Shown here in pieces: positions 46,411-64,000 of a stretch of 64,000 nt of DNA. Origin of the DNA: Bradyrhizobium elkanii USDA 76 (GTDB lineage: Bacteria > Pseudomonadota > Alphaproteobacteria > Rhizobiales > Xanthobacteraceae). How positions within the stretch are numbered: the first letter of the stretch is position 1; every line of letters begins with the position of its first letter. The DNA is taken from contig NZ_CP066356.1 in the NCBI RefSeq assembly GCF_023278185.1, positions 3,154,001 to 3,218,000 of the forward strand, written 5' to 3'. The notes beneath the pieces were generated by a model, which did no database searches, was not told the origin of the DNA, and saw only the letters and a program-made list of their open reading frames with translations. A program made the position numbers and the translations under genes.

Positions 46411-46426
46411 ACCCGAGGCCGTCGTC

Positions 46427-47335: not shown

Positions 47336-47347
47336 CTATCGCCAGTA

Positions 47348-48286
47348 TCACCGGTTCAGGATTTTCAGCCAGACATCGCCGAGGATGATCGGCTCGCGCG
47401 GCGGAAGCCAGGTGAGGCCGGCGGCCTTGCCGAGCTCCGCGATGGTGCCCTTGGCCTGCAGATCGGTGAGAGCCTTGTTGACGGATTCCAGCAGCGCCTT
47501 GTCGGTTTCGAGCGCAACGTAGCCGCGGTTGGCGCCGATCGGATAATAGTAGCCCGAGGCCGTGATCCTGGTGTCGGGATGTTCAGCGCGGTAGGCGTCG
47601 AAGCGGCGCAGGTCGAGCAGCGTGGCGTCGAATTCGCCGCGTTCCAGTTCGCCCAACAGATCGCTGCGCCCCGGAACGAGGTGCGTGATGTCGTCGATCA
47701 GCTTTCCCTTATCGAAGGTCATCAGGATGGCATCGCCCAGCGTGCCGCTTTCGATCGTCAGGCGAAGCCCGGCGAGATCGCCGATATCGGTGATCTTGCG
47801 CTCCTTGATCTTGTCCTTGGCCTTGGGACCGAGGACGACGGTCATCGGCGAATAGATGTAGGGCTGGCTTGGCGCCAGCACCCCGATCGGGATCCGCCGG
47901 CGGCGATCCTCGCGGGTGGCGCCGTCGAAGTCCGGCAGCTTGGCCGTCGTGACGCCGGGCGCCTTCAGCGAGTCCATGGTGAGGGCGTAGCCGCCGACCA
48001 GCGAGCAGCGCCCGTCCGACAGCAGCGCGTTGGCTTCGAGCGCGGGGCTCGAATCTTCGTCGAGCTTGCTCTCGAACCACTGGATCCTGAGCGGCCGTCC
48101 GAGCCGCTCGGCAATCGCCTGCGCGAGCGCGACGTCGAAGCCGGCATCGGGCTTGCCGCGATGATGCGCCGACAGCGGCGGCAGATCCTCGTCGAGGCAT
48201 ACCTTGAGCGGGTCGTCGGCGGCGTGCGCTGCCGCCGGCATGGCAAGAAGCAGGGCCGTCGCGGCGCCCGCAAGCAGGGCCCTCAT
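47348..48286 (-). CDS. MxaJ/XoxJ-like periplasmic binding protein linked to quinoprotein dehydrogenase
   Basis: 312 aa, family-3 solute-binding fold. A Sec signal ('MRALLAGAATALLLAMPAAA', cleavage near AHA-A) is followed by 'KVCLDEDLPPLS', the first strand typical of MoxJ-type proteins. In methylotrophs MxaJ/XoxJ is encoded after the PQQ dehydrogenase and cytochrome and helps maturation or activation of the dehydrogenase rather than transport (XoxJ role from literature memory). Order here is dehydrogenase, cytochrome, this gene; ATGA overlap with the cytochrome stop. Confidence 0.85.
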   Translation of the reverse strand: MRALLAGAATALLLAMPAAAHAADDPLKVCLDEDLPPLSAHHRGKPDAGFDVALAQAIAERLGRPLRIQWFESKLDEDSSPALEANALLSDGRCSLVGGYALTMDSLKAPGVTTAKLPDFDGATREDRRRRIPIGVLAPSQPYIYSPMTVVLGPKAKDKIKERKITDIGDLAGLRLTIESGTLGDAILMTFDKGKLIDDITHLVPGRSDLLGELERGEFDATLLDLRRFDAYRAEHPDTRITASGYYYPIGANRGYVALETDKALLESVNKALTDLQAKGTIAELGKAAGLTWLPPREPIILGDVWLKILNR

Positions 48287-48633
48287 GGGGTCCTCCGGCT
48301 CGACACGAAGGCCCAGACGTCGGCGATCTCCTGCTCGTTCAGGATGTCGACCCAGGGCGGCATCTTGCCGTTCTTGCCTTGCTTCACGGTGGTCACGAAG
48401 CGGGTCTTGTCGTCGGGAAACGCGCGCAAGTCCGGCGTGATGGTGCCGGAATTGACCATGTTGGGCCCATGGCAATGCGAGCAGTTCTTGGCGTAGGTGA
48501 CCTTGCCCTGGTCGGCCTGACCCTGAAGGTCGATTGCGGTGGTTTGCTGTGCGGCGGCCGGGATCAACATGATCAAGGCCGTCGCGACGGCGGCGAAGAT
48601 CGCCGCCGTCAACAGGGTTACTCGTTCAGTCAC
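48283..48633 (-). CDS. Class I cytochrome c, electron acceptor of the PQQ dehydrogenase
   Basis: 116 aa periplasmic monohaem cytochrome. Signal peptide (hydrophobic to about residue 28), haem site C51-S-H-C54-H55, and axial M91 in 'NGKMPPWV'. Small size and position between the PQQ dehydrogenase and the MxaJ-like gene match the XoxG/MxaG role of taking electrons from PQQH2. GTG start at 48633 with GGAG 5 bases upstream; the frame extends further up inside the dehydrogenase gene. Thirteen bases separate it from the dehydrogenase stop. Confidence 0.88.
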   Translation of the reverse strand: MTERVTLLTAAIFAAVATALIMLIPAAAQQTTAIDLQGQADQGKVTYAKNCSHCHGPNMVNSGTITPDLRAFPDDKTRFVTTVKQGKNGKMPPWVDILNEQEIADVWAFVSSRRTP

Positions 48634-48646
48634 GTGTGCTCCGCGC

Positions 48647-50311
48647 TCAGTTCTTGACCGCGAAAACCCACAGCGAGCCGCCGGGTGGGACCTTGGCAAG
48701 CCGCTCGTCGCCCGAGAACAGCGAATAGACGCCGCCATAGCCCGAGGTGACGGCGACATACTGCACGCCGTCCTGCTGCCAGGTGACGGGTTGTCCCTCG
48801 ATGCCCGAGCCGGTCTGGAACTGCCAGAGCTTCTTGCCGGTATCGGCATCGAACGCCTCGAATTCGCCGGTCAGCTGACCGGAGAACACCACGCCGCCGC
48901 CGGTGGAGAGCACGCCGGAGAAGCGCGGAATGTCGCTCGGCGCTTCCCACTTCGCCTTGCCGGTCATCGGATCGATCGCCTTCAGGTGGCCGCGCGGTCC
49001 GGTGCCCCATTCCCAGGGATCGGTGAGATCCATGCCGAGATACCATTCGCCCTGCTTGAACGTCACCGGCTCGGCCTTGTACTTGCCGCCGAAGGCGAGC
49101 GTGTTGGCGTAGGCGAGGCCGGTCTGCGGATTGAACGACATCGGCTCCCAGTTCTTGCCGCCGAGGATCGACGGGTAGACCGTGACCTTCTTGCCTTCAC
49201 GCGCATCCTTGGTGATGTCGGTCTCGATCGGCCGTCCGGTCTTCATGTCGATGCCGGTGGCCCAGTTGACGTTCACATAAGGATTGGCCGCGAGCAGCTT
49301 TCCGTTGGTGCGATCGAGCACGTAGAAGAAGCCGTTGCGGTTGGCGTCCATCAGCACCTTGGTTGGTTTGCCCTCGACGTTCATGTCGGCGAGCACCATC
49401 TCGGCCACCGAGTCGTAGTCGAACGGATTGTTCGGCGAGAACTGGTAGTGCCACTTGATCTTGCCGGTCTTCGGATCTAGCGCCAGCACCGAGCAGGTGT
49501 AGAGGTTGTCGCCGGGGCGCACCGCCGAATTGAACGGTCCGGGATTGCCGATGCCCCAATACACCGTGTTCAGTTCGGGATCGTAGGAGCCGGTGATCCA
49601 GGTCGATCCGCCGCCGAGCTTCCAGGTGTCGCCCTTCCAGGTGTCGCCACCAGGTTCGTCCGGGGTCGGGATCGAGTAGGTCCGCCAGAGCTTTTTGCCG
49701 GTTGCCGGATCCCAGCCATCGATGAAGCCGCGGGTGCCGAATTCGGCGCCCGAGATGCCGGTGATCACGACGCCGTCGGCGACCAGCGGGGCCACCGTCA
49801 TCGAGTAGCCTTCCTTGATGTCCGCAGCCTTCTGGCGCCACAGCTCCTTGCCGGTCTTGGCATCGAGCGCGATCACGTTGGCGTCGAGCGTGGTGCGGAA
49901 CACCTTGCCGTCATACAGCGCGGCACCGCGATTGATGATGCCGCAGCAAACGATACGCGGCGTCTCGGCGGGATACTCGACCTTGGTCTTCCAGATCTGC
50001 TTGCCGGATTTGGCGTCGATCGCGATCGTGGCGTTGTGCGTGGTGACGTAAATGACACCCTGGTAGACGAGCGGCTGCGATTCCTCGCTGCGGTCGTCGT
50101 TCAAACTGTAATTCCAGACCGGCACCAGATTTTTGACGGTGTCCTTGTTGATCTGGTTCAGCGTCGAGAAGCGCTGAAGATTGTAACCCATGCCGTAATT
50201 GAGAACGTTCGAAGTATCAGTCGCCCCCTTGACCAACTGCTCGTTGGTCTGGGCGCTTGCACCATACGATGCAAGAATCACGAGGCTTGCGGCCAGCGCA
50301 ATGCGTCTCAT
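48647..50311 (-). CDS. Lanthanide-type PQQ-dependent alcohol dehydrogenase (XoxF/ExaF-like)
   Basis: 554 aa, eight-bladed quinoprotein, Sec signal ending 'SYGASAQ'. PQQ/metal site residues: vicinal disulfide C122-C123, metal ligands E190 ('SGAEFG') and N256 ('GIGNPGPF'), catalytic D298 and the additional D300 in 'NPFDYDSV'. Asp at the +2 position is the accepted marker for lanthanide instead of calcium binding (MxaF has Ala, calcium ethanol dehydrogenases Ser/Thr). The chain is shorter than classic XoxF (about 600) and lacks its long insert, so an ExaF/PedH-like substrate range (ethanol and others) is possible. GGGAGGA ribosome site; 225-base upstream region with no other gene. Confidence 0.92.
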   Translation of the reverse strand: MRRIALAASLVILASYGASAQTNEQLVKGATDTSNVLNYGMGYNLQRFSTLNQINKDTVKNLVPVWNYSLNDDRSEESQPLVYQGVIYVTTHNATIAIDAKSGKQIWKTKVEYPAETPRIVCCGIINRGAALYDGKVFRTTLDANVIALDAKTGKELWRQKAADIKEGYSMTVAPLVADGVVITGISGAEFGTRGFIDGWDPATGKKLWRTYSIPTPDEPGGDTWKGDTWKLGGGSTWITGSYDPELNTVYWGIGNPGPFNSAVRPGDNLYTCSVLALDPKTGKIKWHYQFSPNNPFDYDSVAEMVLADMNVEGKPTKVLMDANRNGFFYVLDRTNGKLLAANPYVNVNWATGIDMKTGRPIETDITKDAREGKKVTVYPSILGGKNWEPMSFNPQTGLAYANTLAFGGKYKAEPVTFKQGEWYLGMDLTDPWEWGTGPRGHLKAIDPMTGKAKWEAPSDIPRFSGVLSTGGGVVFSGQLTGEFEAFDADTGKKLWQFQTGSGIEGQPVTWQQDGVQYVAVTSGYGGVYSLFSGDERLAKVPPGGSLWVFAVKN

Positions 50312-50536
50312 CCTATCCTCCCAATGAAACCTTTTTTCTGCACGCCTATTCCTGACGTTGCGGACGGAACCATCCGCCTGAAACCAAAACGGGTCAATAC
50401 GAAAACGTGAACGAGCGCCCGCTAACCGCGCGAGGCCGGTCGATAGCGTCAGGTTTTTGGCAAACGGTCCGTGGCTTACCGTCGCGTGGAATACGCTACA
50501 CCAGCGCAGCCCGCCGTTATGCCGCAGCGCGAACGG

Positions 50537-50782
50537 TCAGCTGGACGGCGTAGGGGGACAGACACTCGGCCGCGGTTTCGCGCCCCGCTTGTCCGGCGGC
50601 ACATTGCAATTATCGATACGCTGCTCGTCGGTCCATTTGCGGCCGAGCCGCTCCTTGCCGGTGAGCACGCGCTGCTGGACCGCCTCCGCCGATGGGGCAG
50701 GGTGCCGGGTCTGCGCGGACGCAGGCGCGATCAGACCGAGCACGACCAGACAGCCCAACGCACTCCTGCAAATGTCGCTCAT
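50537..50782 (-). CDS. Small secreted protein, 81 aa
   Basis: Sec signal ('ALGCLVVLGLIAPASAQ') followed by a 55-residue polar domain 'LTGKERLGRKWTDEQRIDNC' and a Pro/Lys-rich end with two Cys residues (possible disulfide). ATG 50782 has GAGGTGA upstream. No family recognised. It is upstream of the dehydrogenase on the same strand, and divergent from lanM; participation in the lanthanide system is only positional. Confidence 0.68.
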   Translation of the reverse strand: MSDICRSALGCLVVLGLIAPASAQTRHPAPSAEAVQQRVLTGKERLGRKWTDEQRIDNCNVPPDKRGAKPRPSVCPPTPSS

Positions 50783-50972
50783 GGCTCACCTCGATCATCC
50801 TGGTGCGATACGTCGGAGCTCCACAGGTGACCGGTCGGGAGGTCCCTTTCCACCCGAAAGCCGACGAGGGCTCACTGGTTGCGCCAGCTGTCAAAGATTC
50901 GCCGAGGCTGTTATGATGCGCCTTTCATGGCGCGCTTCGCCCCGTCGCCGGAGCGGCACGCAAGGGAGATGA

Positions 50973-51374
50973 ATGATGATTTCGCGCCGATCGCTTGCTC
51001 TGACTTTGGCCATGGCCGTCCTGTCGGCGCCCGCCCTGGCGGCATCCGGCCGCAAGGGCGCGCTGAAGATGCTCGATCCTGACAATGACGGTACGGTCGA
51101 TCTCGCCGAAGCCAAGAAGGCTGCCGCCAATCTGTTCGCGAAGCTCGATCCCGACCATGACGGCACGCTCGACGCGCGCGAATTGCGCGGACGGCTGACC
51201 GCGAAAGAACTGGCCGCCGCCGATCCGGATCACGACGGCACCCTGACGCTCGACGAATACCTTGCGGTCGTCGAGCAGCGCTTCAAGGCCGCCGATCCCG
51301 ACAATGACGGAACGCTGGATGCGAAAGAGTTGAAGTCGCGTGCCGGCCGGGCCCTGCTGCGCCTGCTCAAATAG
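50973..51374 (+). CDS. lanM: Lanmodulin homologue (periplasmic lanthanide-binding EF-hand protein)
   Basis: 133 aa with a signal peptide ending near 'APALAAS' (residue 24). Four EF-hand loops of 12 residues: 35-46, 59-70, 84-95 and 108-119, each beginning Asp-Pro-Asp-x-Asp-Gly-Thr. Proline at loop position 2 in all hands, acidic residue at 9 in three (Thr in loop 3) and only 12-13 residues between loops are the hallmarks of lanmodulin from Methylobacterium (Methylorubrum), where ordinary EF pairs are spaced about 24. The precursor length is also that of lanmodulin. AAGGGAGA precedes two adjacent ATG codons (50973 and 50976). It sits 661 bases from the lanthanide-type dehydrogenase. Confidence 0.9.
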   Translation: MMISRRSLALTLAMAVLSAPALAASGRKGALKMLDPDNDGTVDLAEAKKAAANLFAKLDPDHDGTLDARELRGRLTAKELAAADPDHDGTLTLDEYLAVVEQRFKAADPDNDGTLDAKELKSRAGRALLRLLK

Positions 51375-51708
51375 GTTGCCAGCCGGCGAACTTTGCCGGG
51401 CGGATTGCCGTATATTGACGCAGGATTCCGCGCATAACAAAAAAAGCTGCGATTTCGCTCTTGGGCAAGACGCGGCTGGATGAATCGGGTCTCCTTACCC
51501 GCGCGTCGCCGCCCGGCAGCCGGAAAATGCCCGACAGATCAGTGTCGGAGTTCCCAATGCCGGGCAGATGTCAGCGAGCCGTCGTCCGCTTCGGCATGTC
51601 CAGCAGCGAAGTCGGGTCCTTACCCGGCCGGCTTGCGCCCTGGAAAAGGCAGCCCTAGCTTGCCGCGCGGCGCGAGGCTTGCGCCAACTTATGACTTGGG
51701 AGAAGGAA
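51375..51708 (+). ncRNA. Candidate structured leader of pqqA
   Basis: The 334 bases between lanM and pqqA contain no reading frame of merit but several nested helices: hairpin A at 51486-51501 (CGGGT/ACCCG), a long-range helix 51511-51518 with 51558-51565 (GCCCGGCA/TGCCGGGC) enclosing hairpin 51531-51548 (CCGACA/TGTCGG), hairpin B at 51613-51626 with the same CGGGT/ACCCG stem as A, and a GGCGC/GCGCC hairpin at 51669-51685 just before the ribosome site (GGGAGAAGGAA). I know no named RNA family that fits. A leader or riboswitch-like element is a hypothesis. Confidence 0.4.
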
Positions 51709-51789
51709 ATGGCCTGGAAAACACCGAAGATCGTTGAAGTGCCGGTGGGCATGGAAATCAACATGTACGCCTGCGCAGCGCGCAAGTAA
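51709..51789 (+). CDS. pqqA: PQQ precursor peptide PqqA
   Basis: 26-residue peptide, the ribosomal precursor of PQQ. The Glu and Tyr that are joined by PqqE are in 'GMEINMYACAARK' (E16 and Y20, spacing Glu-x3-Tyr) after the family's 'PKIVEVPVG'. Ribosome site GGGAGAAGGAA ends right before the ATG. No pqqB-E genes follow: a hairpin terminator comes next and then an outer-membrane protein, so this is an orphan copy and the biosynthetic genes must lie outside the window. Confidence 0.92.
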   Translation: MAWKTPKIVEVPVGMEINMYACAARK

Positions 51790-51813
51790 TCTTAAGACAA
51801 GTAACGCGAGACA

Positions 51814-51856
51814 GCCTGCCCGGTTCGTGCAGCGCGCTGCATCGAGCCGGGCAGGC
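51814..51856 (+). terminator. Terminator after pqqA
   Basis: GCCTGCCCGG / CCGGGCAGGC, perfect 10-bp stem; the 23-nt loop contains a second palindrome TGCAGC-GC-GCTGCA. Starts 24 bases after the pqqA stop. Confidence 0.72.
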
Positions 51857-52015
51857 GTCTCTTGTGGAAAGTGTCTTTCGCGGGCCCTGATGCGGCCGCT
51901 CGGACAGCTTCCCTCATACCCTTCCCACAAGACCTTGGGGCCGACACCACCTGCGCGATTGGCGGGCCTTGCTGCTTTGTCCTACAGTGTGGCCGGAGGC
52001 GGTGGTGCGGGGACG

Positions 52016-52900
52016 ATGAATCCAAAGATCAGGACCGGGCGCTGGATAGGGATGCTGTGCGCGTCGATTGCCGGCATCGCGGCGGTGCTGCCGCCTCGCG
52101 CCTATGCCGAGGACTTTGATACCGAGCACATTTTCGGCTTCATGATCGGCTCCGACGTGGGCAATGTCGGCGAGCGTGAATTCCAGAGCCAGACCACCGG
52201 GCGCTTCGCCAAGGACGGCGGCCGGTATCGCACGCTCAATCAGGAAATGGAGCTCGAGCTCGTGCCCGCGCCGAATTTTCGCGTCGAGCTCGGAACGTCA
52301 TTCAGCGCATACGACATCGGCCGCGTTCCCGGTCTTGACGATCGGCGCCAGCTGTCGTGGCAGAGCGTCTCGGTCGATTTCCGCTATCGCTTTCTGAACC
52401 GCGAGGCGGCGCCCTTTGGCATGACGGTCGCACTGGAGACGCGTGCCGATCGCGTCGACGAGACGACGGCCGCCGCCGTCCGTAGCTATGGCACCGAACT
52501 CACGGTCGCGTTCGACCGCGAGGTGATCCCGAATTTTCTCATCGCGGCCCTTAACCTGAGCTATGAGCCGGAATGGACGCGCACGCCGCGCACCGGCGCT
52601 GCGGATCAGGATGCAACCATCGGTGCCGCATTCGGCCTGATGGCCAGGGTGAAGCCGGATATCCTGATCGGCGGCGAAGCGCGCTATTTCAGGAAGTATG
52701 AGGGAATCGGCCTGGATGAATTGTCAGGGCAGGCGCTGTTCATCGGGCCCACCGCCTATTTCCAGCTCTCCGAACGTTCACGGCTGACCGCGACCTGGAG
52801 CGTCCAGGCCTGGGGGCAGCGGGCCGGGAGCAACGCTGCCCTCGATCTGGTCAATTTCGAGCGCCATCAGGCGCGGCTGGTGTACGGTTTGAACTTCTAG
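52016..52900 (+). CDS. Outer-membrane beta-barrel protein
   Basis: 294 aa with a signal peptide ('LCASIAGIAAVLPPRAYAED') and repeated amphipathic strands with aromatic ends; the last residue is Phe ('RHQARLVYGLNF'), the signature of barrels inserted by the BAM complex. No porin loop 3 is obvious. Location between pqqA and the transporter genes suggests a pore for alcohols, metal or chelate (inference), but the protein could be unrelated. ATG 52016 is chosen because the signal peptide begins there, although the frame is open further up. Confidence 0.75.
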   Translation: MNPKIRTGRWIGMLCASIAGIAAVLPPRAYAEDFDTEHIFGFMIGSDVGNVGEREFQSQTTGRFAKDGGRYRTLNQEMELELVPAPNFRVELGTSFSAYDIGRVPGLDDRRQLSWQSVSVDFRYRFLNREAAPFGMTVALETRADRVDETTAAAVRSYGTELTVAFDREVIPNFLIAALNLSYEPEWTRTPRTGAADQDATIGAAFGLMARVKPDILIGGEARYFRKYEGIGLDELSGQALFIGPTAYFQLSERSRLTATWSVQAWGQRAGSNAALDLVNFERHQARLVYGLNF

Positions 52901-53017
52901 CGCGTGAAGCCTCTGGGGCCGGGTTCCGCAACTTTTCACGGGGCTGTGAAACCCGGACTTGGCTGATTACGTATTTCGTCGTGTTATCTATTGCATGAGC
53001 ACGCTTGGGGATCGCGC

Positions 53018-53254
53018 ATGAACCCGATTGATCTGATCGTCACTGTATGTGCCGTGCTGTCGCCCGCCACCTGCGAGGAGCAGCATCTGGTGTTCAACTG
53101 GAACGGCTCGCTACAGCAATGCGTCATGGCCGCGCCGCCTTACATCGCGCAATGGGTCGGCGAACATCCGAAATGGACCGCGGTGCGCTGGCGTTGTGAA
53201 TATCCGCACAGCAACGATCGGGCCGGCGCGGGCGGCGAGCCGCCGGCGGGTTAG
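53018..53254 (+). CDS. Hypothetical small protein, 78 aa
   Basis: Begins 'MNPIDLIVTVCAVLSPATCE' and continues 'EQHLVFNWNGSLQQCVMAAP' with three Cys and several Trp. The N-terminal hydrophobic stretch could be a signal or an anchor. I recall similar short proteins in alphaproteobacteria but no function. ATG 53018; a TTG at 52991 is an alternative. Confidence 0.6.
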   Translation: MNPIDLIVTVCAVLSPATCEEQHLVFNWNGSLQQCVMAAPPYIAQWVGEHPKWTAVRWRCEYPHSNDRAGAGGEPPAG

Positions 53255-53259
53255 CCTTC

Positions 53260-53613
53260 CTATTTGTTGCAGTCCTTCAGGTCCTTGTCGGATACCGAAA
53301 ACACGGCGTCGGCCTTGATCTCGATGTCGCGAACGAAGCACTGCCTGGCGCCGCTGTAGCCGACCTTGGCGTCGTAGCGACCGGGTTCGACGCCGGTGAT
53401 GCGCAGCCGCTCGTCGTGGTCGACTTCCTTGTCCTTGTCGTTGAGCGTCTGGTTGGGGCCCCACGCGTTCTTGCCTGCCGGCGACAACTCAAAGCTCGAA
53501 ATCGTGGCGCTGGTCAGATTCCACAGCCGAATGCCTTTGCCCTTGCTTTGGGCGAGCACTGTCGCCGGCAGCACAAGCAACGCAACACCAACAGCGATCA
53601 ACGCGCGCGACAT
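53260..53613 (-). CDS. Hypothetical secreted protein, 117 aa
   Basis: Clear Sec signal ('MSRALIAVGVALLVLPATVL', cleavage near AQ) and a compact beta-rich domain ('LWNLTSATISSFELSPAG', 'LRITGVEPGRYDAKVGYSG', 'CFVRDIEIKADAVFSV'). Similar Trp-Asn-Leu-Thr starts occur in small periplasmic proteins whose role is unknown. It lies immediately downstream of the ABC ATPase gene cluster, with 40 bases between; it may be the last gene of that unit or separate. Confidence 0.68.
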   Translation of the reverse strand: MSRALIAVGVALLVLPATVLAQSKGKGIRLWNLTSATISSFELSPAGKNAWGPNQTLNDKDKEVDHDERLRITGVEPGRYDAKVGYSGARQCFVRDIEIKADAVFSVSDKDLKDCNK

Positions 53614-53653
53614 CCAGCCTCTCCCTTATGTTTCGTCCAAGGATGACGGCGTC

Positions 53654-54364
53654 TCACATATTTGCAAGGTCCAACTGTGAGAGTTGCCGCTTGATTTCGT
53701 CGATCTCGGGCTCGCTGCGCGTCGCGCGCGGTGCGGCGATGGTCTCGACGTGGAGGATTCGGGCCGGCCGCGGCGACAGGAAGAACAGGCGATCGCCGAG
53801 GCGGACCGCGTCGTCGAGATCGTGGGTGACGAGCAGGGTCATCATTTTCCGGCTGGCCACCAGCGTCGCGACCTGGTCGCGCAGCCGCCCCGCGAGTGCA
53901 TTGTCGAGCGAGGCCAGCGGCTCATCGAGAATCAGGAAATCGGGCTCGATGGCGAAGGCGCGGGCCAGCGCGACCCGGCGGGCGAGGCCGAGCGACAGCT
54001 CCGCGGGAAAATGGTTGCGGTGCGCGCCCAGTTCGAGCACCTCGAACAGCGCAGAGAGCGTGCTGTCGCCGACATGCGGCGCGGCCAGCCGCACATTCTC
54101 CTCGACCGTGCGCCAGGGCAACAGCCGCGGCTCCTGGAAGACCATGCCAAGGCGCATGCCCGGCGATCGCGTGACACGGCCCTGGTAGTTGGCGTCGAGC
54201 CCGGCGAGGATCCGGAGCAGGGTGCTCTTGCCGCAGCCTGACGGGCCGAACAGCACGCCGACCTCGCCGGCGTTCAAGGTGAAGGTGACGTTGTCGAGCA
54301 CGTCGTGCCGCTTCCCGGCCGCGCTCTCAAAACTCTTGCCGGTGATATTGACCTCAAGCTGCAC
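53654..54364 (-). CDS. ABC transporter ATPase (nitrate/sulfonate/taurine type)
   Basis: 236 aa ATPase. Walker A 'GPSGCGKSTLLRIL', Q-loop 'MVFQEPRLLPW', signature degenerate as 'LSLGLARR' instead of LSGGQ, Walker B 'FLILDEPLASLD', switch 'LVTHDLDDAVRL'. Subfamily features match SsuB/TauB/NrtD. It overlaps the permease gene by 11 bases and, with the binding protein, makes a full importer. The nonstandard signature also occurs in some family members. Confidence 0.9.
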   Translation of the reverse strand: MQLEVNITGKSFESAAGKRHDVLDNVTFTLNAGEVGVLFGPSGCGKSTLLRILAGLDANYQGRVTRSPGMRLGMVFQEPRLLPWRTVEENVRLAAPHVGDSTLSALFEVLELGAHRNHFPAELSLGLARRVALARAFAIEPDFLILDEPLASLDNALAGRLRDQVATLVASRKMMTLLVTHDLDDAVRLGDRLFFLSPRPARILHVETIAAPRATRSEPEIDEIKRQLSQLDLANM

Positions 54365-55091
54365 GGAGCCGCCACCGCGTTAGCCTGGTTTCAAACGGCT
54401 GCACCAGCAGGGTTTCGATGACGAGCACGACACCCGCAAAGCTCAGCGAATAGGCGAGCAGCAAGGGGATGTCGAACAGCTGGAAGGCGACGCCGATCTC
54501 GAAGCCGACGCCGTTCGGCCGGCCGAGATATTCAGCGACCAGCACGATCTTCCAGACCAGCGAGAGCCCGGAGCGCGCAGCGGCCGCGATGTAGGGCGCA
54601 AGCTGCGGCAGGATCACATCACGGAAGGCGCGGCCGCGCGGAAAAGAAAACGCCGCCGCCATTTCGTCGAGCGCAGGGTCGAGCGCGCGGGCGCCCTCGC
54701 GCAGGGTGACGACGGCGGTCGGCAGCTTGTTGATGGCGATGGCTGCGATTGCCGCGACCTCGGTCAGCCCGGCCCAGATGTAAGCGAGCACGATGACGAC
54801 GAGCGCGGGCAAATTGAGCAGCAGGATCAGCCAGGGATCGCCAAGGCGATTGGCAAGCGAGACACGGCCCATCAAATAGCCGATCGCCGAGCCGAGCGCC
54901 ATGGCAAGGGTGAAGGCCAGCGCGACGCGCGCCAACGTCGCGCCGAGATTGACGAACAGCGCGCCCGATCGGGCTTCGGCGACGAGCACCGACAGCACTG
55001 CAGGCGGCGCCGGCAGCTTCGCATCGCCGATCAGCAGCGAGGCAATCCACCAGGTCGCGATGAACAGCGCGAATGAGAGGAGACGCAGCAC
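54354..55091 (-). CDS. ABC transporter permease (nitrate/sulfonate/taurine type)
   Basis: 245 aa, six membrane segments of the SsuC/TauC/NrtB family; the coupling loop is 'EMAAAFSFPRGRAFRDVILP'. Overlaps the ATPase gene downstream, and starts 2 bases after the stop of the binding-protein gene, so the order binding protein - permease - ATPase is a single operon. Confidence 0.9.
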   Translation of the reverse strand: MLRLLSFALFIATWWIASLLIGDAKLPAPPAVLSVLVAEARSGALFVNLGATLARVALAFTLAMALGSAIGYLMGRVSLANRLGDPWLILLLNLPALVVIVLAYIWAGLTEVAAIAAIAINKLPTAVVTLREGARALDPALDEMAAAFSFPRGRAFRDVILPQLAPYIAAAARSGLSLVWKIVLVAEYLGRPNGVGFEIGVAFQLFDIPLLLAYSLSFAGVVLVIETLLVQPFETRLTRWRLRAA

Positions 55092-55093
55092 CG

Positions 55094-56074
55094 CTAGTCT
55101 CCCGGGATCGCTTGGTAGAAGGTGCCGGGATCGAGTTCGGTTGCCGTGCCGACCAGGTCGCGGCCGCCGAGCTGCGCCAACACGCGGTAGAGCACGCGGG
55201 CATCCGCCTCCTCTTCGGCGATCGGACGGCGCGGAATGCCTTCGCGATAGCGCTCACGATAGGCATGCAGGGTTGCGGCATCCTGCGCGCCGGTGAGCGA
55301 CGCGATCGCGTCCCATTCGGCATCCGAGGTCGCCAGAATCTCTTTCGCGGCGCGCGTCACGGCGATGAAGCGGGCCACCAGATCCTTGTTGGCGTTGGCC
55401 CAGGCTTCGTCGAACACGTAGCCGATCATGGCGATGCGGCCCTTGCTGCCGAGCTTTTGCAGGATCTCCTCCATCCCGGCGAGCCGGCGAAAGCCCTTGG
55501 CTTCGAGCGCGGCGCAGAAATTCCAGTAGTTGAGCGTCGCATCCATCTCGCCGCCGAGCGTCTTGGCGGCCAGCAGCGGCGGTGCGCCATAGACGATGGT
55601 CGCCTGCGACTTCAGGTCGACGCCGTCCTGCTTCGATGCGGCCTGCAGCAGCAGCCAGTTCTTGTCGATCGCGCCGCCGGCAATGGCAAGCTTGCGCCCC
55701 TTGAGGTCCGCGAGCGTCTTGACCGGCGAGGAGGCCGGGACCATCACGGCGCCCAGCGCGCTCGAATAGGGATAGAATTGCAGCTTGGCGCCGAGCGACC
55801 GCTCGCGCGACACCCAGGGCCAGTCCGATACCATCACGTCGGCCGTGCCGGCGCGCAGCGCGATCTTGCCGGCCTCGGGGCTGGCCAGCTCGACGACGTC
55901 GATCGACAGATTGGCCTTCTTGTCGAGACCATGGGAGCGAATGACGGCCAGTTCCCAGGCCAGCGTTCCGGTCTTCTGCGCTGCAACGCGGATGGTCTGC
56001 GCGTAGCACGAGGTGCCGAACTGCATGACCGCCAGAACTGCCGCAGCCAACACCGTGCGTACAGAGATGATCAT
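55094..56074 (-). CDS. ABC transporter substrate-binding protein (SsuA/TauA/NMT1 type)
   Basis: 326 aa periplasmic protein with signal peptide ('VLAAAVLAVMQFGTSCYAQ') and the SsuA/NMT1 fold: 'IRVAAQKTGTLAWELAVIRS', 'LASPEAGKIALRAGTADVMV', 'VKTLADLKGRKLAIAGGA'. Substrates of the family include sulfonates, nitrate, taurine and pyrimidine precursors. The insertion of the transporter between PQQ/lanthanide genes suggests a chelate or redox-related solute (inference only). Start ATG 56074; a GTG at 56089 adds five residues but its ribosome site is too close. Confidence 0.85.
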   Translation of the reverse strand: MIISVRTVLAAAVLAVMQFGTSCYAQTIRVAAQKTGTLAWELAVIRSHGLDKKANLSIDVVELASPEAGKIALRAGTADVMVSDWPWVSRERSLGAKLQFYPYSSALGAVMVPASSPVKTLADLKGRKLAIAGGAIDKNWLLLQAASKQDGVDLKSQATIVYGAPPLLAAKTLGGEMDATLNYWNFCAALEAKGFRRLAGMEEILQKLGSKGRIAMIGYVFDEAWANANKDLVARFIAVTRAAKEILATSDAEWDAIASLTGAQDAATLHAYRERYREGIPRRPIAEEEADARVLYRVLAQLGGRDLVGTATELDPGTFYQAIPGD

Positions 56075-56160
56075 CGCTTCTTGAGCCACTTCCCCGAATG
56101 TTTTCTTTTCTGATCAACATCCATAGCATAGCTTGCGGAAAGAGAAGAGGAAGCAGGACC

Positions 56161-57510: not shown

Positions 57511-58437
57511 CTATTCCCATTCAATTTCCGAGAATGCTGCAGTTGCGTTGCGGGCGTTGTAATCGTCGAACAATTGCCAGCGCGGCCGCTCGGCGGCTGC
57601 GGCGTGCTCCGCCGCGGCCGTGATCGGCTTGCCGCTTGCGACCAGTGCGCGCACGTCCGCGGCCAGCACCCCGAGATAACGGCGTTCATCGGCAAGCGCT
57701 GCCGGCCACGCGCTCACGGGGCCGTGACCGGGAACCACGCGCTCGGCGGAGATCGCAGCGAGCGCGTCGAGCGCGCGCAGCCAGCCCCTGAGGCTGCCGT
57801 CGACCACGGGAATATGGATGAGAAACACCATATCGCCGGCGAACAGAGTCCTGGTTTGCTCGTCGAGGACCGTGAGGTCGTTGTCGCTATGGGCGGGCGG
57901 CCACGCTTTCAGGGTGAGGGTCCGTCCGCCGAGCTCGAGCTTCAGCGTGTCCGCGACCAGCACGGTCGGGGGGACGATCTTCACCTCGTCGATCAACTCG
58001 TCGCCCATGGTCCGGCGAAACCCGTCGAGGTAGAATTGTCCGCGTGCGGCCAGCGCGCGTGGCAGCGACTTGTGGCCGACGAAGCTGGTCCCGTCGCCGA
58101 CGAAAGCCGCATTGCCGAAGCTGTGATCCGGATGCGCGTGGGTGTTGATCACGTAGCGGATCGGCTTGTCGGTATGGCTGCGGACCGCGGCGAGCAGCTG
58201 TCGTCCTTCGCGGACGCTGCCGCCGGTGTCGATGACGGCGACGGCGCTGTCGCCGATCACGAATCCCACATTGGCGATGGCGCCTTCGTTCTCGCGCGTC
58301 ATCAACGCGGTGACCCCGGTGTGAACGAATATTCCGGGAGCGACTTCGCTTACAGGCAATTCCACCTCTTGCGCCCGCGCTATGGTCGGCGCCCAAAGCA
58401 TCAGGAGCAGCGCAAGCACCGAACCGCCATGAGCCAT
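57511..58437 (-). CDS. Quinoprotein-relay metallo-beta-lactamase-fold hydrolase
   Basis: 308 aa secreted MBL-fold protein. Signal peptide '[19 protein letters not shown]'; metal motif H-x-H-x-D-H in '[12 protein letters not shown]', then 'LWAGGHAF'-type antisense aside, the sense strand shows '[19 protein letters not shown]' and '[11 protein letters not shown]' with the later His ligands. Its partner is the SoxYZ-like carrier 43 bases downstream. SoxH-related MBL proteins are known neighbours of PQQ dehydrogenase systems and may hydrolyse a carrier-bound thioester (inference). Confidence 0.87.
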
Positions 58438-58604
58438 GTTTCCGCCTCAGTTACTCGGGGACGCGCGATCGATGTCGTGGCGTTCCAGTTTGCGCTGCAG
58501 CAAGCAACGCGGCGTGGTCGCGAACATCATTCCTGTTGCACGTCATGGTGCGCCGGGCAATTGCTGGATGGCGGCGATCGATCCGATCAAGAGGAGACCG
58601 CGTA

Positions 58605-59486
58605 ATGAGAATTGTCGGATGCCGTCCTGTTCTGCTCGCGCTTGTCGGCTTCATCGCCTGTCTGGCCGGTCGCGACACTGCGCGCGCGCAGGTCAATGAT
58701 CAGGGCGAACTTTCCATCGAACTCATCGATGCCCGCGTGCTGCGTATCTGTGCCGATCCCCGCAACCTGCCGTTCTCGAACGACAAGGGCGAGGGGTTTG
58801 AGAACAAGATCGGCGAACTGCTGGCCGGGAAACTGCAAAAGAAGCTCGACTACATGTTCTTTCCGCAGGCGACCGGCTTCGTGCGGATGACGCTCGGCGC
58901 GCATCGCTGCGACGTGATCATGGGCTTTCCGCAAGGCGATGACCTCGCGCAGGGCACCAATCCCTATTACCGCACAGCCTATGCGATCGTCGCCAAGCCG
59001 GGCAGTGGGCTCGATGAGGTCACGACGCTCGAGGACGAGCGGCTGAAGGGCAAGCATATCGGCATCGTGGCGGGAACGCCGCCCGCGACCAACATGGCCA
59101 TCAACGGCCTGATGACCAATGCGAAGCCTTATCCGCTGATGATCGATACGCGCTACGATTCATCGGCCGAGGCGATGATGAACGATCTCGCCAAGGGTGA
59201 GATCGACGCCGGCATCCTGTGGGGGCCGATGGCGGGCTTTTACGCCAAGAAGGCCAACCCGCCGCTGCACATCACGCCGCTGGTCAAGGAGACCACGGGA
59301 CCGAAGCTGGTCTATCGCATCGGTATGGGTGTGCGGGCATCCGACCAGAACTGGAAGCGCCAGCTCAATCGCCTGATCCAGGAGAACCAGCCCGAGATCA
59401 ACAAGATCCTGCTCGACTACGGCGTCCCGCTGCTCGACGAGAACGACCGTCCAATCGGGCCGGAGACCGCGACCAAATCACCATGA
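58605..59486 (+). CDS. Quinoprotein dehydrogenase-associated periplasmic binding protein (MoxJ-2 type)
   Basis: 293 aa, family-3 binding fold with signal peptide. 'LRICADPRNLPFSNDKGEGF' is the characteristic first strand of the second MoxJ-related family that accompanies PQQ alcohol dehydrogenases. GAGGAG ribosome site 8 bases before the ATG. It differs strongly from the MxaJ-like protein at 47348. In Methylorubrum a related binding protein (LutA) belongs to the lanthanide-uptake system (literature memory), a plausible counterpart. Its 3' end contains a 14-bp tandem duplication that also supplies the start region of the next gene. Confidence 0.85.
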   Translation: MRIVGCRPVLLALVGFIACLAGRDTARAQVNDQGELSIELIDARVLRICADPRNLPFSNDKGEGFENKIGELLAGKLQKKLDYMFFPQATGFVRMTLGAHRCDVIMGFPQGDDLAQGTNPYYRTAYAIVAKPGSGLDEVTTLEDERLKGKHIGIVAGTPPATNMAINGLMTNAKPYPLMIDTRYDSSAEAMMNDLAKGEIDAGILWGPMAGFYAKKANPPLHITPLVKETTGPKLVYRIGMGVRASDQNWKRQLNRLIQENQPEINKILLDYGVPLLDENDRPIGPETATKSP

Positions 59487-59498
59487 CCAAATCACCAT
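59471..59498 (+). repeat. 14-bp tandem duplication across a gene junction
   Basis: GACCAAATCACCAT occurs twice in direct succession. The first copy holds the stop of the binding-protein gene (TGA 59484-59486 uses its last T), the second leads into the ATG of the next gene at 59497. With one copy, stop and start would have overlapped as ATGA; duplication separated them by 10 bases. Confidence 0.85.
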
Positions 59499-60051
59499 GA
59501 TCAGGCTCGCGGCCGTGCTTGCGGTGATGTTCGTCGCCGCTTCGTCTGTCCGCGCGCAGGACCCACCCGCAGAGCCGGAGGGCTATCGCACCGAGGACTA
59601 CCGCGCGCCGGTGCCGGTGACGCTTGCCGGCGCACGGGTGCTCACGACCGCGGAAGCGGAAGCGATCTGGCGCGACAAGTCCGCCGGCTTCGTCGACGTG
59701 CTGCCGCGCGCGCCGAAGCCAAACCTGCCCGCCGGCACGGTGTGGCGCGAACGGCCGCACCTCAACATTCCCGGCAGCATCTGGCTGCCCGACACCGGCT
59801 ACGGCAAGCTCGCTGCGCCCACGGAGGATTATCTGCGACGCGGGCTCGTCCGCGCCTCAGGCGGCGAGGCGACCAGATTGCTCGTGATCTACTGCCAGGA
59901 GAATTGCTGGATGTCGTGGAACGCCGCCAAGCGCGTGCTGTCCTACGGCTACCGCAACGTGGCCTGGTATCCGGAGGGAACCGACGGCTGGGAGCGTGCC
60001 AAATTGCCGCTGGCGGATGCCGAGCCCGAGCCGCGCGAGGGAGAGCAATGA
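59497..60051 (+). CDS. PQQ-associated CXXXCW-motif protein (rhodanese-like)
   Basis: 184 aa secreted protein (signal to about residue 21) of the PQQ-linked family with the motif C133-Q-E-N-C137-W138, followed by 'MSWNAAKRVLSYGYRNVAWY' and 'PEGTDGWERA'. The fold resembles rhodanese, and the two Cys could form a redox or metal site. The family is defined by co-occurrence with an ABC system for PQQ-metabolised alcohols. Likely co-transcribed with the binding protein upstream. Confidence 0.9.
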   Translation: MIRLAAVLAVMFVAASSVRAQDPPAEPEGYRTEDYRAPVPVTLAGARVLTTAEAEAIWRDKSAGFVDVLPRAPKPNLPAGTVWRERPHLNIPGSIWLPDTGYGKLAAPTEDYLRRGLVRASGGEATRLLVIYCQENCWMSWNAAKRVLSYGYRNVAWYPEGTDGWERAKLPLADAEPEPREGEQ

Positions 60052-60517: not shown

Positions 60518-61135
60518 TCAATCGAGCTCCTGCTGGATGGTCCGGCCGAGCGCGAACAGGCGCTGATCGATGGCGGTCGGCACCTCGCAGACGAATTTCA
60601 CCACGCGCCCGCGGTCCTCGAAAATGCGGGTCTCCCAGACCAGTTGGTTGCCGAGCTCGTCGACCTTGGCCTGGTCCGGCGGTGTCGCGTCCTGCAGCGC
60701 TTGCAGCTTGAGCGTGTCGTCGCGGATCTTCTCCGCGGCCTCGCGCTGCTTGCGCATCACGCGCTCGAGCCCGTTCATCACCGAGGCGCGCTGTCCGTTT
60801 AGCGTATCGAACAGGCCCGCGAACAGCAGCTTTCCCGCATTGGCCTTGTCGGCCGCGGCAGCTGACAGGAATTCGGTGATCTCCTTCTGCGCCTCCTCCA
60901 GCGGGACGCGGCGCGCCGCGAGCTTGATCGCGAGTGCGCTGACTTTCGCGTCGTCCTTCCACTTGGTCTCGGCGTCGCCGAGCGGCGGCCCGGCCCAGAC
61001 CGCGGCGAGCGAGATCTCGGGCACCTTGGCCTGTTGGCAGGGCCAGTCCGGATAGCGCGGGTCGGCAGCTGATGCGACCTGGTTCGACAGAACCATCGCG
61101 AGCAGCGCGCCCAGCCCTGTTCGCCAGCCTGTCAT
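60518..61135 (-). CDS. Secreted helical protein in the PQQ/lanthanide ABC operon, 205 aa
   Basis: Signal peptide ('LGALLAMVLSNQVASAAD'), a short conserved piece 'PDWPCQQAKVPEISLAAVWA', then long helices with coiled-coil character ('GLERVMRKQREAAEKIRDDT') and two Cys. ATG 61135 overlaps the permease stop (ATGA), so it is the last gene of the ABC-2 operon. I recognise no catalytic motif; a periplasmic accessory of the transporter is likely. Confidence 0.75.
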   Translation of the reverse strand: MTGWRTGLGALLAMVLSNQVASAADPRYPDWPCQQAKVPEISLAAVWAGPPLGDAETKWKDDAKVSALAIKLAARRVPLEEAQKEITEFLSAAAADKANAGKLLFAGLFDTLNGQRASVMNGLERVMRKQREAAEKIRDDTLKLQALQDATPPDQAKVDELGNQLVWETRIFEDRGRVVKFVCEVPTAIDQRLFALGRTIQQELD

Positions 61136-61980
61136 GCCTCGCCTCCGCCGGGTCCGCGGCGCACCAGGCCGCGCGATGGATCGTAAGCCAGGATCGCGCC
61201 GATCATGAAGACGACCGTGCAGCCGCCGACCACCGCGAGCGAAATCCAGTTCATCTTGCCATACAGCGCAAACCGGATCAGCTCCACCGCATGCGTGAAC
61301 GGATTGCACTGGCAGATATAATACAGCATCGGGCTGCCTTCCTGCACGCGCCACAGCGGGTAGAGGGCCGACGATGCGAAGAACATCGGGAAGATCACAA
61401 AGTTCATCACGCCAGCGAAATTTTCCAGCTGCTTGATGCTGGCCGAGATCAGCATGCCGAGCGCGCCGAGCATAAGGCCCGACAGCACCAGCGCCGGAAG
61501 CACGGTGAGGTAGCCGATCGTCGGCGGCGCGATGTCCCAGAACCATGCGATGACAAGGAAGGCATAGACCTGCAGCAGCGACACGGCCGTGCCCGCGAGC
61601 AGCTTGCAGAACAGGAGATAGCCGCGTGGCAGCGGGCTGACCAGCAGCGTGCGCATGTTGCCCATCTCGCGGTCGTAGACCATCGACAGCGAGGATTGCA
61701 TGCCGTTGAAGAGCTGGATCATCGCCATCAGCCCGGGCGCGATGTAGACCTCGTAGAGGATGTAGGTCTCGTAGGGCGGGATGATCGAGATGCCGAGCAC
61801 CTGCCGGAAGCCGGCCGCGAAGATGAACAGCCAGACCAGCGGCCTGACCAGCGCCGACACGAAGCGCTCGCGCTGATGCAGGAAGCGCAGCGCCTCGCGC
61901 CACACGATGCCGTTCAGGCAGACGATGTATTCCGACAGCGAGAAGCCGCTTCGCTCAGCCGTAACCGTCGTGCTGGTCAT
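61132..61980 (-). CDS. ABC-2 type permease of a PQQ/alcohol- or lanthanide-linked transporter
   Basis: 282 aa with six hydrophobic segments and the ABC-2 pattern ('PLVWLFIFAAGFRQVLGISI', 'MVYDREMGNMRTLLVSPLPR', 'YYICQCNPFTHAVELIRFAL'). ABC-2 proteins are usually exporters. This branch (PedC-like) is defined by PQQ-dependent alcohol oxidation; the related LutF of Methylorubrum is needed for lanthanide uptake (memory). Overlaps by ATGA both the ATPase before it and the helical protein after it. Confidence 0.87.
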   Translation of the reverse strand: MTSTTVTAERSGFSLSEYIVCLNGIVWREALRFLHQRERFVSALVRPLVWLFIFAAGFRQVLGISIIPPYETYILYEVYIAPGLMAMIQLFNGMQSSLSMVYDREMGNMRTLLVSPLPRGYLLFCKLLAGTAVSLLQVYAFLVIAWFWDIAPPTIGYLTVLPALVLSGLMLGALGMLISASIKQLENFAGVMNFVIFPMFFASSALYPLWRVQEGSPMLYYICQCNPFTHAVELIRFALYGKMNWISLAVVGGCTVVFMIGAILAYDPSRGLVRRGPGGGEA

Positions 61981-62798
61981 GACGGCGGTCTCCCCGCGAG
62001 TGTTGCCGTTCCGGTCAGCCGCATGAACGCGGTGTTGACGTCCTGGGCGCCTGCGTCCGCGATCACGCGCGACACCGGGCCGTGCGCCAGCATTCGGCCC
62101 TGATGCAGCACGACGAGGTCGTCGTTTGGCATGATTTCGTCGAACAGATGCGTCGCCCAGAGCACGCCGATGCCCTGTTCGGTGACGAGCTGCCGGACAT
62201 GGTCGAGGATGTCGGCGCGCGCCTTGACGTCGAGCCCGACCGTGGCCTCGTCGAGCAGCAGCAGCCGGGGCCGGTGCAGTAGCGCGCGGGCGATCTCAAG
62301 CCTTCGCATCTGGCCGCCCGAGAGATCGCGCACCTTGCTGGCGGCGCGGTCGGCAAGCCCGATGCGGCCAAGCACCTCGGCACTGCGCAGCCGCGCCTCG
62401 CGCCGCGAGATGCCGTGCAGCGCGGCGTGATACAGCAGGTTCTGCGTCAGCGAGAGGTCGAGGTCGAGCGTTCGCGGCTGGAACACGACGCCCATCAGCC
62501 GCAGCGCTTCACCAGGCGTCCGGCTGATGTCGTGGCCAAAGATCTTGATCTGGCCGTTCTGGATGCCGAACAGCCGCGTCACCAGCGAGAACAGCGTGCT
62601 CTTGCCGGCGCCATTGAGGCCCAGCAGCGCGGTGAAGCTCGCAGGCTGAACCGTGAAACTGACATCGATCAGGGCGCGGCGCGGGCCGTAGCTATGGCTG
62701 ACATTGCCGATCGACAGCGCCGGTTGCACGGCCGCGGCTGTTCCAGGGCCTGCATCCGGCGAGGGCTGGCTCGCGATATGGGCGTCGGTTGCGGTCAT
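61977..62798 (-). CDS. ABC transporter ATPase of the PQQ/lanthanide-linked system
   Basis: 273 aa. Walker A 'LLGLNGAGKSTLFSL', Q-loop 'MGVVFQPRTLDLD', signature 'LSGGQMRRLEIARA', Walker B 'LLLLDEATVGLD', switch 'LWATHLFDEI'. The RTLDLDLS segment is typical of the PQQ-associated branch. ATG 62798 overlaps the beta-propeller stop (ATGA). Functions with the permease 61132-61980. Confidence 0.92.
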   Translation of the reverse strand: MTATDAHIASQPSPDAGPGTAAAVQPALSIGNVSHSYGPRRALIDVSFTVQPASFTALLGLNGAGKSTLFSLVTRLFGIQNGQIKIFGHDISRTPGEALRLMGVVFQPRTLDLDLSLTQNLLYHAALHGISRREARLRSAEVLGRIGLADRAASKVRDLSGGQMRRLEIARALLHRPRLLLLDEATVGLDVKARADILDHVRQLVTEQGIGVLWATHLFDEIMPNDDLVVLHQGRMLAHGPVSRVIADAGAQDVNTAFMRLTGTATLAGRPPS

Positions 62799-63763
62799 GG
62801 CTGCGCGATCGTGATCCCCCAGGGCAGTTCGCCGACCTGAATGGTCTTGATCACCTTCTGGGATGCAACGTCGATCACCGAGACGTCGTTCGAGACGCCG
62901 TTGGTGACCAGCAAATATTTTTCGTCCGGGGTGAAATCCATGTGCCAGACCCGCTGGCCGACCAGGAGATATTTGAGGACCTTGTGGGTCACACCGTCGA
63001 CGACCGCGACGCGGTTGGCGGGGCCGAGCGCAATGAATGCAGTCTTGCCGTCCTTGGTCATGCCGATGCCGACGGGCTGGATCGCCTCGTTGCGCAGGCC
63101 CGGAATTTCGAAGGTGATCTTGCCGGTCACCTCGCGCTTGACCGGATCGACGATCGACACCGTGCCGCCGATCTCGGAGGAGACCCACAGTTCGGAGCCG
63201 TCGCGCTTGAACTGGGCGAAGCGCGGCCGCGAATCGACCAGCACATTGGCGACGATCTGGCGCGTCGACGTGTCGATGAAATGCGCCATGTTGGTCGTCT
63301 CGGACGTGTTGATCAGGATCTTGCCGTCCGGGCTGATCGTCATCCCCTCGGGTTCGACGCCGACCTGGATGTCGCCGATCCGGGCGCGCTTTTCGAGATC
63401 GATCACGGTCACGGTGTTGTCGTTCTCGTTGGCGACATACATGGTCTTGCCGGCGGCATCCTGGGTGAACAATTCAGGATCGGGACCGGAGGGCAGGGTG
63501 TCGACGATCTCCTGGGTCTTGGTGTCGATCACCTGGATCGTGTCGTCGTCGCCGACCGCGACCATCACGAATTTGCCGTCGCGCGAGAACTCGATGCCGC
63601 GCGGCCGCTGGCCGACCTTGATGGTTTTGGTCACCGTCCAGCTGTTGGTGTCGATCACCGTGACGGTGTTGCCCTTCTCGTTGGAGACGTAGGCAACGAA
63701 GGCGGACGCCGGTGCCGCGGCAAGCCAAACGAGCATCCCGGTCAACAGACAGCGGCGCCACAT
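62795..63763 (-). CDS. YVTN beta-propeller protein of the PQQ/lanthanide ABC operon
   Basis: 322 aa secreted seven-bladed propeller: signal 'CLLTGMLVWLAAAPASAF' then repeats such as 'YVSNEKGNTVTVIDTNSWTV', 'YVANENDNTVTVIDLEKRAR' and 'LVTNGVSNDVSVIDVASQKV'. The family is the PQQ-catabolism-associated propeller (LutD counterpart in Methylorubrum, by memory). GAGGGAG lies 9 bases before the ATG at 63763; the ATG at 63772 is directly adjacent to this site and so less likely. Overlaps the ATPase start. Confidence 0.88.
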   Translation of the reverse strand: MWRRCLLTGMLVWLAAAPASAFVAYVSNEKGNTVTVIDTNSWTVTKTIKVGQRPRGIEFSRDGKFVMVAVGDDDTIQVIDTKTQEIVDTLPSGPDPELFTQDAAGKTMYVANENDNTVTVIDLEKRARIGDIQVGVEPEGMTISPDGKILINTSETTNMAHFIDTSTRQIVANVLVDSRPRFAQFKRDGSELWVSSEIGGTVSIVDPVKREVTGKITFEIPGLRNEAIQPVGIGMTKDGKTAFIALGPANRVAVVDGVTHKVLKYLLVGQRVWHMDFTPDEKYLLVTNGVSNDVSVIDVASQKVIKTIQVGELPWGITIAQP

Positions 63764-63777
63764 GCGTTTCATCTCCC

Positions 63778-64000
63778 TCACTGCAGCTTGCACTTCGTTT
63801 CAGGCCGGTCAACTCCGAGCGTGTCGAGTTCGGAGACCTGATGCAGGAAACCTTCCTGCGGCGAGACCGAGACCACCATACGACCATCGGCCAGCAGGAT
63901 CGGCTGGCGGAGCTGCAGATTCCAGTCTCGCAGGGTCAAGCGCGTGCCCTTGAAAGCGGCAATCGAGAAATCCTTGCCCTTGAGGAAGGCGATGACCTTC
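63778..64000 (-). CDS. Partial: ABC substrate-binding protein of the PQQ alcohol dehydrogenase system (C-terminus)
   Basis: Only the last 73 codons are in the window; the start lies beyond 64000. The translated end reads 'FKGTRLTLRDWNLQLRQPIL' then 'MVVSVSPQEGFLHQVSELDT' and 'DRPETKCKLQ', which matches the C-terminus of the binding-protein family that accompanies PQQ alcohol dehydrogenase ABC systems. Stop TGA at 63778-63780, 14 bases before the propeller ATG, so it is the gene upstream in the same operon. Confidence 0.82.
   Translation of the reverse strand, partial: KVIAFLKGKDFSIAAFKGTRLTLRDWNLQLRQPILLADGRMVVSVSPQEGFLHQVSELDTLGVDRPETKCKLQ

Follow-up and report, generated by a model that had tools for sequence, protein, structure and literature searches.

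A predicted lanmodulin beside a PedH-like PQQ dehydrogenase in Bradyrhizobium elkanii, and its natural variants across the genus

Lanmodulins (LanMs) are used in the separation and sensing of rare earths, and few of them have a measured selectivity. According to the accessible portions of the papers cited here, the hallmarks of the family are four EF hands, a spacing of 12–13 residues and a proline at position 2 (Pro-2) of at least one loop (PMC10232371). In Mex-LanM, the protein of Methylorubrum extorquens, loop 4 starts with asparagine and shows an affinity that is only micromolar; Asp-9 is involved in hydrogen bonding to the bound solvent (PMC10232371). The engineered replacement N108D raised the stoichiometry for Gd from about 2.2 to 3.8 (PMC11561317). 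Methylobacterium aquaticum 22A grew on methanol without a defect when lanM was deleted, and the same outcome is cited in that work for M. extorquens PA1 (PMC9260416). Regarding Bradyrhizobium, homologues of lutA, B, E, F and G have been reported (PMC12628762), in a paper where a search of the main text found neither 'LanM' nor 'lanmod'. Moreover, 15 LanM sequences on plasmids of the genus are already in print, with no binding data for them in the accessible portions of the source (PMC12482762), so that the occurrence of LanM in Bradyrhizobium is not new. No measurement on any Bradyrhizobium LanM was found in the accessible literature, the search lying mostly outside subscription journals.

The stretch analysed in this work (the window) comprises 64,000 nucleotides of the genome of B. 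elkanii USDA 76. It contains a lanM gene (50973..51374, + strand) for a precursor of 133 residues, or 132 if the second in-frame ATG at 50976, which directly follows the first one, is used. Given this second ATG and the length of 130–132 residues of many relatives (81 of the 120 listed, out of 5112 found), the true precursor may start one codon later and have 132 residues. A signal peptide, as claimed in an earlier note on this DNA, is visible by eye in residues 1–24 (50973..51044, +), reading MISRRSLALTLAMAVLSAPALA-A with S-R-R-S-L near the N-terminus, and gives this protein of less than 200 residues the look of an exported one. The four EF-hand loops are DPDNDGTVDLAE (EF1, 51075..51110, +, from residue 35), DPDHDGTLDARE (EF2, 51147..51182, +, from residue 59), DPDHDGTLTLDE (EF3, 51222..51257, +, from residue 84, with Thr at position 9) and DPDNDGTLDAKE (EF4, 51294..51329, +, from residue 108, with Asp at position 1 where Mex-LanM has Asn). 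Asp-Pro-Asp-x-Asp-Gly-Thr opens each of them, so Pro-2 is present in all four, and the loop positions give spacers of 12, 13 and 12 residues. The letters that the note had read (the four openings, the separation of 12–13 residues and the 133-residue length) were all correct when checked. A sigma-70-like promoter candidate at 50888-50917 (one found, 0.3 expected) was discarded, being unconserved among 61 aligned starts that include the one of the window. Rfam gave no match within 46000-64000.

Both a curated family model and the comparison with the PDB identify the product of 50973-51374 as a lanmodulin, as had been proposed from the letters alone. With the NCBIfam LanM equivalog NF053806.1 (cut-off 135) the protein reaches 194 bits over residues 4–133, and the E-value of 9.6e-58 means that the reading frame is not a chance one. 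The best 60 of 141 matched PDB sequences are headed by lanmodulins (Mex-LanM, 6mi5, 118.9 bits and 8fns, 118.2; Hans-LanM, 8dq2, 85.1; the Ancylobacter protein, 9pi2, 79.9), and the next ones are HeliScrew4 (35.7 bits), centrin, which is the best natural match outside the lanmodulins (28.8), and calmodulin (26.5 at best). The three published hallmarks are all present. That the gene encodes an ordinary EF-hand protein for calcium, with no more than a likeness to lanmodulin, is an extremely improbable reading of these data: some close relatives are titled 'calcium-binding protein' or 'EF-hand domain-containing protein' in their source databases, and generic EF-hand Pfam models also match the protein, but the equivalog score far exceeds its cut-off, the 12–13 residue spacing goes together with Pro-2 in all loops, and within the same best 60 of 141 matches lanmodulins reach 79.9–118.9 bits while calmodulins stay at or below 26.5. 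A tree, which the earlier note had asked for, was built with 101 rows: the window, 51 of 80 named loci (the best 80 of at least 180 relatives, 75 of them titled Bradyrhizobium), 29 loci from the search in the order, three references and 17 other EF-hand proteins, which are the below-cut-off matches of the search in the class. The LanM of the window falls in a clade of 61 rows with support 99 that holds all 51 named-locus rows and nine order rows. It was not placed with the other EF-hand proteins, but the branch parting these 17 from the LanMs is weak, a point in favour of the calcium reading; with its support of 38 and the long branches at this deeper split, the tree by itself would not settle the matter.

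Taking the protein as a lanmodulin, its way out of the cytoplasm offers another alternative, suggested by the S-R-R motif: LanM could be loaded with metal in the cytoplasm and exported in a folded state by the Tat pathway, which would make export metal-gated. Of the 80 named loci (best 80 of at least 180), 64 do show S/T/N-R-R-x-[FLVIM] close to the N-terminus. Yet in eight of these 80 the arginine pair is broken within otherwise similar starts (MISCRS, MISPRS, MISARS, MISSRS, MMSRHS, MISRSF), which strict Tat export should not tolerate, eight more lack such a start (one of them, L042, with a doubtful start call), and the hydrophobic cores, judged by eye, look suited to the Sec pathway. Tat-dependent, metal-gated export was consequently put aside as very unlikely.

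The lanM gene of the window belongs to an island of genes associated with lanthanides and alcohol oxidation. On one side, all on the minus strand, lie a periplasmic solute-binding protein of family 3 (47348..48475, PF00497, start uncertain), a c-type cytochrome ORF (48283..48849, PF13442) whose true start is probably internal because its 5' end overlaps the dehydrogenase gene, the PQQ dehydrogenase itself (48647..50311) and, between the latter and lanM, a small exported-looking protein of 81 residues (50537..50782) with relatives in 29 of the 80 named loci (best 80 of at least 180). On the 3' side of lanM there is an exported-looking protein (52016..52900, +, start set by eye) with relatives in at least 54 of the same 80 (best of at least 180); the longer ORF at 51734-52897 had no Pfam match. 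It is followed by an exported-looking protein of 117 residues (53260..53613, −), without Pfam or NCBIfam match, and by an ABC transporter made of ATPase, permease and NMT1-type binding protein (53654..56089, −). Further on we find a quinoprotein relay system zinc metallohydrolase 2 (57511..58437, −, TIGR04559), a MoxJ_2-type binding protein (TIGR03871) with a CXXCW protein (TIGR03865) (58536..60051, +), and a lanthanide-uptake-like block with a LutG-like protein, a LutF-like permease, a LutE-like ATPase and a beta-propeller protein (TIGR03866) (60518..63793, −). The 3' part of a LutA-like periplasmic binding protein of 393 residues, named by position, closes the window and runs past its end (63778..64000, −). 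The Lut names were inferred from the gene order in two f42 stretches and not from the AM1 sequence. The XoxF of this genome maps about 20 kb away, outside the window (G000:C1:3224684-3226489), so that the ABC transporter, the quinoprotein accessory genes and the Lut-like genes lie between it and the dehydrogenase next to lanM; the ORFs after XoxF were named by eye as a c-type cytochrome, a glutathione-linked formaldehyde dehydrogenase and a formaldehyde-activating-type protein. At the DNA level, the locus is 95.6% identical to B. pachyrhizi PAC 48 over 15,556 aligned bases and 95.8% over another 4,765.

The neighbouring dehydrogenase, divergent from lanM, has 554 residues and passes TIGR03075. 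Its Glu190, Asn256, Asp298 and Asp300 align with the metal-ligand positions of the XoxF of the same genome, and the lanthanide-type Asp-x-Asp motif is D298-Y-D300. The best PDB matches are quinoprotein ethanol dehydrogenases: 6zcv (458.7 bits), which we take to be PedH, 6zcw (449.0) and 1flg (432.4), presumably a calcium enzyme, with Asp-Phe-Ser at the position of the motif. The best match named XoxF (6dam) reaches 371.9 bits, and only 225 of 554 aligned residues are identical to the XoxF of the genome. With this low identity and the higher scores of the ethanol dehydrogenases, orthology with XoxF was rejected, and the enzyme is best predicted as PedH/ExaF-like with all four lanthanide-ligand residues. 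The lanthanide-type PQQ dehydrogenase announced in the earlier note thus keeps its ligands, with the correction that it would be PedH/ExaF-like rather than XoxF.

The genome of 9.5 Mb in two contigs contains this single LanM plus one weak match to another EF-hand protein. Of the 265 genomes of the genus (this one counted), 217 have a match at E ≤ 0.001 and 200 exceed the LanM cut-off, which is also passed by 25 of 149 genomes sampled in the family, 29 of 397 in the order and three of 385 in the class, samples that include the own genome and some others of the genus. The Thr at position 9 of loop 3, presented in the note as a variant, is certainly there but not peculiar, since 79 of the 80 named loci carry it and a single one has Asp. 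In these same best 80 of at least 180 relatives, loop 4 opens with Asn in 57, with Asp in 22 and with Pro in one; the second residue of loop 1 is Thr in 55 cases, Pro in 23 cases and Ser in two; and Asp-Pro starts all four loops in 16, L042 among them. In L042 (10001-10393, B. altum), the LanM shows a short deletion within its first EF-hand loop. Another 29 loci of the genus, biased in that they are the best matches of the search in the 265 genomes, have Thr-9 in loop 3 in all cases and Asp-1 in loop 4 in 21. The 29 order-search loci, some from the same genus, are more diverse at loop 3 position 9, with Asp in 16, Thr in 11, and Asn and Glu in one each. Asp-1 in loop 4 is the letter that separates this sub-clade from Mex-LanM.

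The neighbourhood was compared at 45% identity and half coverage, in counts that are lower bounds because contig ends cut some loci. Among the 80 named loci (best 80 of at least 180), the PQQ dehydrogenase lies near lanM in at least 65, each of the three ABC genes in at least 69 and a SoxH-type gene in at least 63. The dehydrogenase is absent from the stretch in L070, L103, L105, L106, L110 and L112, some of which are short contigs, leaving out L054 as a contig-end case. Outside the genus, the same Lut-like block accompanies lanM in two of the five f42 stretches, where the PedH-like enzyme is absent; in the tree, seven of the nine f42 rows join Mex-LanM at a fork with support 85. Five of the seven LanM stretches from outside the genus (three f42 stretches and one each of G494 (f2) and G394 (f1)) have no lanthanide-related neighbour among the genes of the window, and the lanM neighbourhood is not general. 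Some particular loci deserve mention. A second lanM is found elsewhere in B. tropiciagri SZCCT0338 (L080) and B. mercantei (L089), where the nearby PQQ dehydrogenase is a different one that shares about 40% identity with that of the window, and the start of this LanM lacks the arginine pair. A Bradyrhizobium-type lanM locus was also found under the title 'Frankia sp. RB7' (L057), with a LanM identical in the tree to that of a genome of the genus; this assembly is probably mislabelled or contaminated.

To compare LanM with the two dehydrogenases, 29 LanM-less genomes were taken from the 65 under the cut-off, all of them at least 98% complete and with weak matches or none; the remaining ones were 28 not among the matches listed, seven below 98% completeness and G126, with an intermediate match. 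The LanM-plus set holds the first 29 by handle number with completeness of at least 98%, skipping G019 (96%) and not counting the own genome. XoxF occurs in 25 of the 29 LanM-less and in all 29 LanM-plus genomes (Fisher p 0.11), figures matched by the 117-residue protein at 53260-53613. With a distribution that coincides with that of XoxF over the 58 genomes (54 have both, four have neither), this protein is a candidate part of the XoxF system. The PedH-like gene is found in seven of 29 versus 28 of 29 (Fisher p 1e-8). In an rpoB tree of the 58 genomes plus the own one, LanM changes five times. The five independent pairs gave for the PedH-like gene averages of 1.7 with LanM, 0.3 against and 3.1 without difference, and for XoxF 1.7, 0.0 and 3.3, with a median p of 0.5 in both cases.

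These numbers bear on whether LanM in Bradyrhizobium serves mainly the adjacent PedH-like dehydrogenase rather than XoxF, a reading that we regard as possible but on the doubtful side. The contrast of 28/29 with 7/29, while XoxF gives 29/29 and 25/29, speaks for it, as does the presence of the gene near lanM in at least 65 of the named loci (best 80 of at least 180). However, the count comes mostly from one LanM-less clade of 22 XoxF-bearing genomes, four of them with the PedH-like gene; XoxF does no worse in the independent pairs, and neighbouring genes can be lost together. Once relatedness is counted, the association of LanM with the PedH-like gene is mostly that of one clade and no better than that of XoxF, and the co-occurrence was rejected as evidence of function despite its Fisher p. 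Moreover, G028 and G050 keep the PedH-like gene while their syntenic place lacks an intact LanM, and six named loci (L068, L077, L078, L081, L085 and L087) hold XoxF and no PedH-like orthologue in the stretch. G028, which keeps XoxF and the PedH-like gene, bears at that place a decayed lanM remnant (L178, 3697-3918, −; E 8e-7); no remnant was found at the syntenic place of G050. On the other side, XoxF persists in 25 of 29 LanM-less genomes (the clade of 22 plus G028, G050 and G066), and LanM is consequently not needed for keeping XoxF. Such retention, together with the deletions without a methanol growth defect, leaves the shuttle role weakly supported, and the role that fits LanM best is an accessory one, that of buffering or shuttling lanthanide in the periplasm.

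Altogether, we consider it highly likely that this gene encodes an exported lanmodulin that folds on lanthanides over calcium and buffers or shuttles them in the periplasm for the enzymes and the importer of the island. Judging from characterised relatives, on which metal binding, folding, location and buffering role are all modelled, the protein would be exported to the periplasm and be probably disordered without metal, and the uptake of lanthanide(III) by its EF-hand loops, in preference to calcium, would lead to folding. It would most likely buffer or shuttle periplasmic lanthanides for a set that includes the PedH-like dehydrogenase, Lut-like uptake and quinoprotein accessory genes, with XoxF and formaldehyde-oxidation-like genes some 20 kb off. 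A bolder version, in which the LanM of this sub-clade is a natural four-site protein, through the Asp-1 of loop 4 that N108D mimics, whose near-universal Thr-9 alters solvent in loop 3 and selectivity, and whose job is tied to the PedH-like enzyme and not to methanol growth with XoxF, seems rather unlikely as a whole. In conclusion, this is an ordinary lanmodulin in a genus where the family is widespread, with two positions worth measuring, and it is useful above all as a natural test set. The genus suits the question of the cellular role of LanM, with the protein in 200 of 265 genomes and an XoxF-bearing clade of 22 without it, and this branch is a natural test of two single positions, the first of loop 4 and the ninth of loop 3, in a scaffold like that of Mex-LanM.

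Among the described relatives, the plasmid LanMs of Bradyrhizobium (PMC12482762) share genus and family with the protein of the window, whose gene lies on contig C1, of 9,115,474 bases. Our plasmid collection gave two lanM matches, in Methylobacterium and Methylorubrum, and none in Bradyrhizobium, so the plasmid copies of that source, as far as accessible, were not reproduced. The LanM of M. aquaticum 22A, with 134 residues, has likewise four EF hands and a signal peptide, but in its first two loops position 2 is occupied by Thr and Lys (PMC9260416, accessible text) instead of the Pro that the protein of the window has in all four. Hans-LanM (Hansschlegelia quercus, 8dq2) and the Ancylobacter LanM (9pi2) belong to the same family with the same spacing (47/103 and 46/101 aligned residues identical), and carry Asn-1 and Glu-9 in loops 1–3 and the Arg100 equivalent, which the LanM of the window does not have. 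With the position of Arg100 counted from Glu91 of the printed chain, this residue and Glu-9 of loop 3 of Hans-LanM correspond to Glu101 and Thr92, and Asp-1 is found instead of Asn-1. With Asn-1, Glu-9 and the Arg100 equivalent absent, a Hans-type dimer would not be expected, and the differing oligomerisation evoked in the earlier note is not predicted; a monomer like Mex-LanM would be.

Mex-LanM (6mi5, 8fns) is identical to the protein of the window at 61 of 102 aligned positions, and shares with it the spacing of 12–13 residues, four loops of DPDxDGT type (the fourth beginning with Asn in Mex-LanM) and a Glu at the position of Arg100 of Hans-LanM. Their genomic settings differ, since the lanM of AM1 lies in the lut cluster, according to the accessible text of PMC7391723 and PMC9260416, and the one of the window beside a PedH-like dehydrogenase. 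Both proteins also differ in two metal-site letters, Asp-9 of loop 3 and Asn-1 of loop 4 in Mex-LanM being replaced by Thr-9 and Asp-1. Considering the role of Asp-9 in Mex-LanM, Thr-9 should alter the hydrogen bond with bound solvent in loop 3, in a direction that is not predictable. As for loop 4, the micromolar site of Mex-LanM with Asn-1 and the effect of N108D make a stronger fourth metal site in the protein with Asp-1 a fair inference, not a result. The engineered N108D, in the accessible portions of PMC11561317, likewise opens loop 4 with Asp, a residue that in the lanmodulin of B. elkanii is natural and comes combined with Thr-9 in loop 3.
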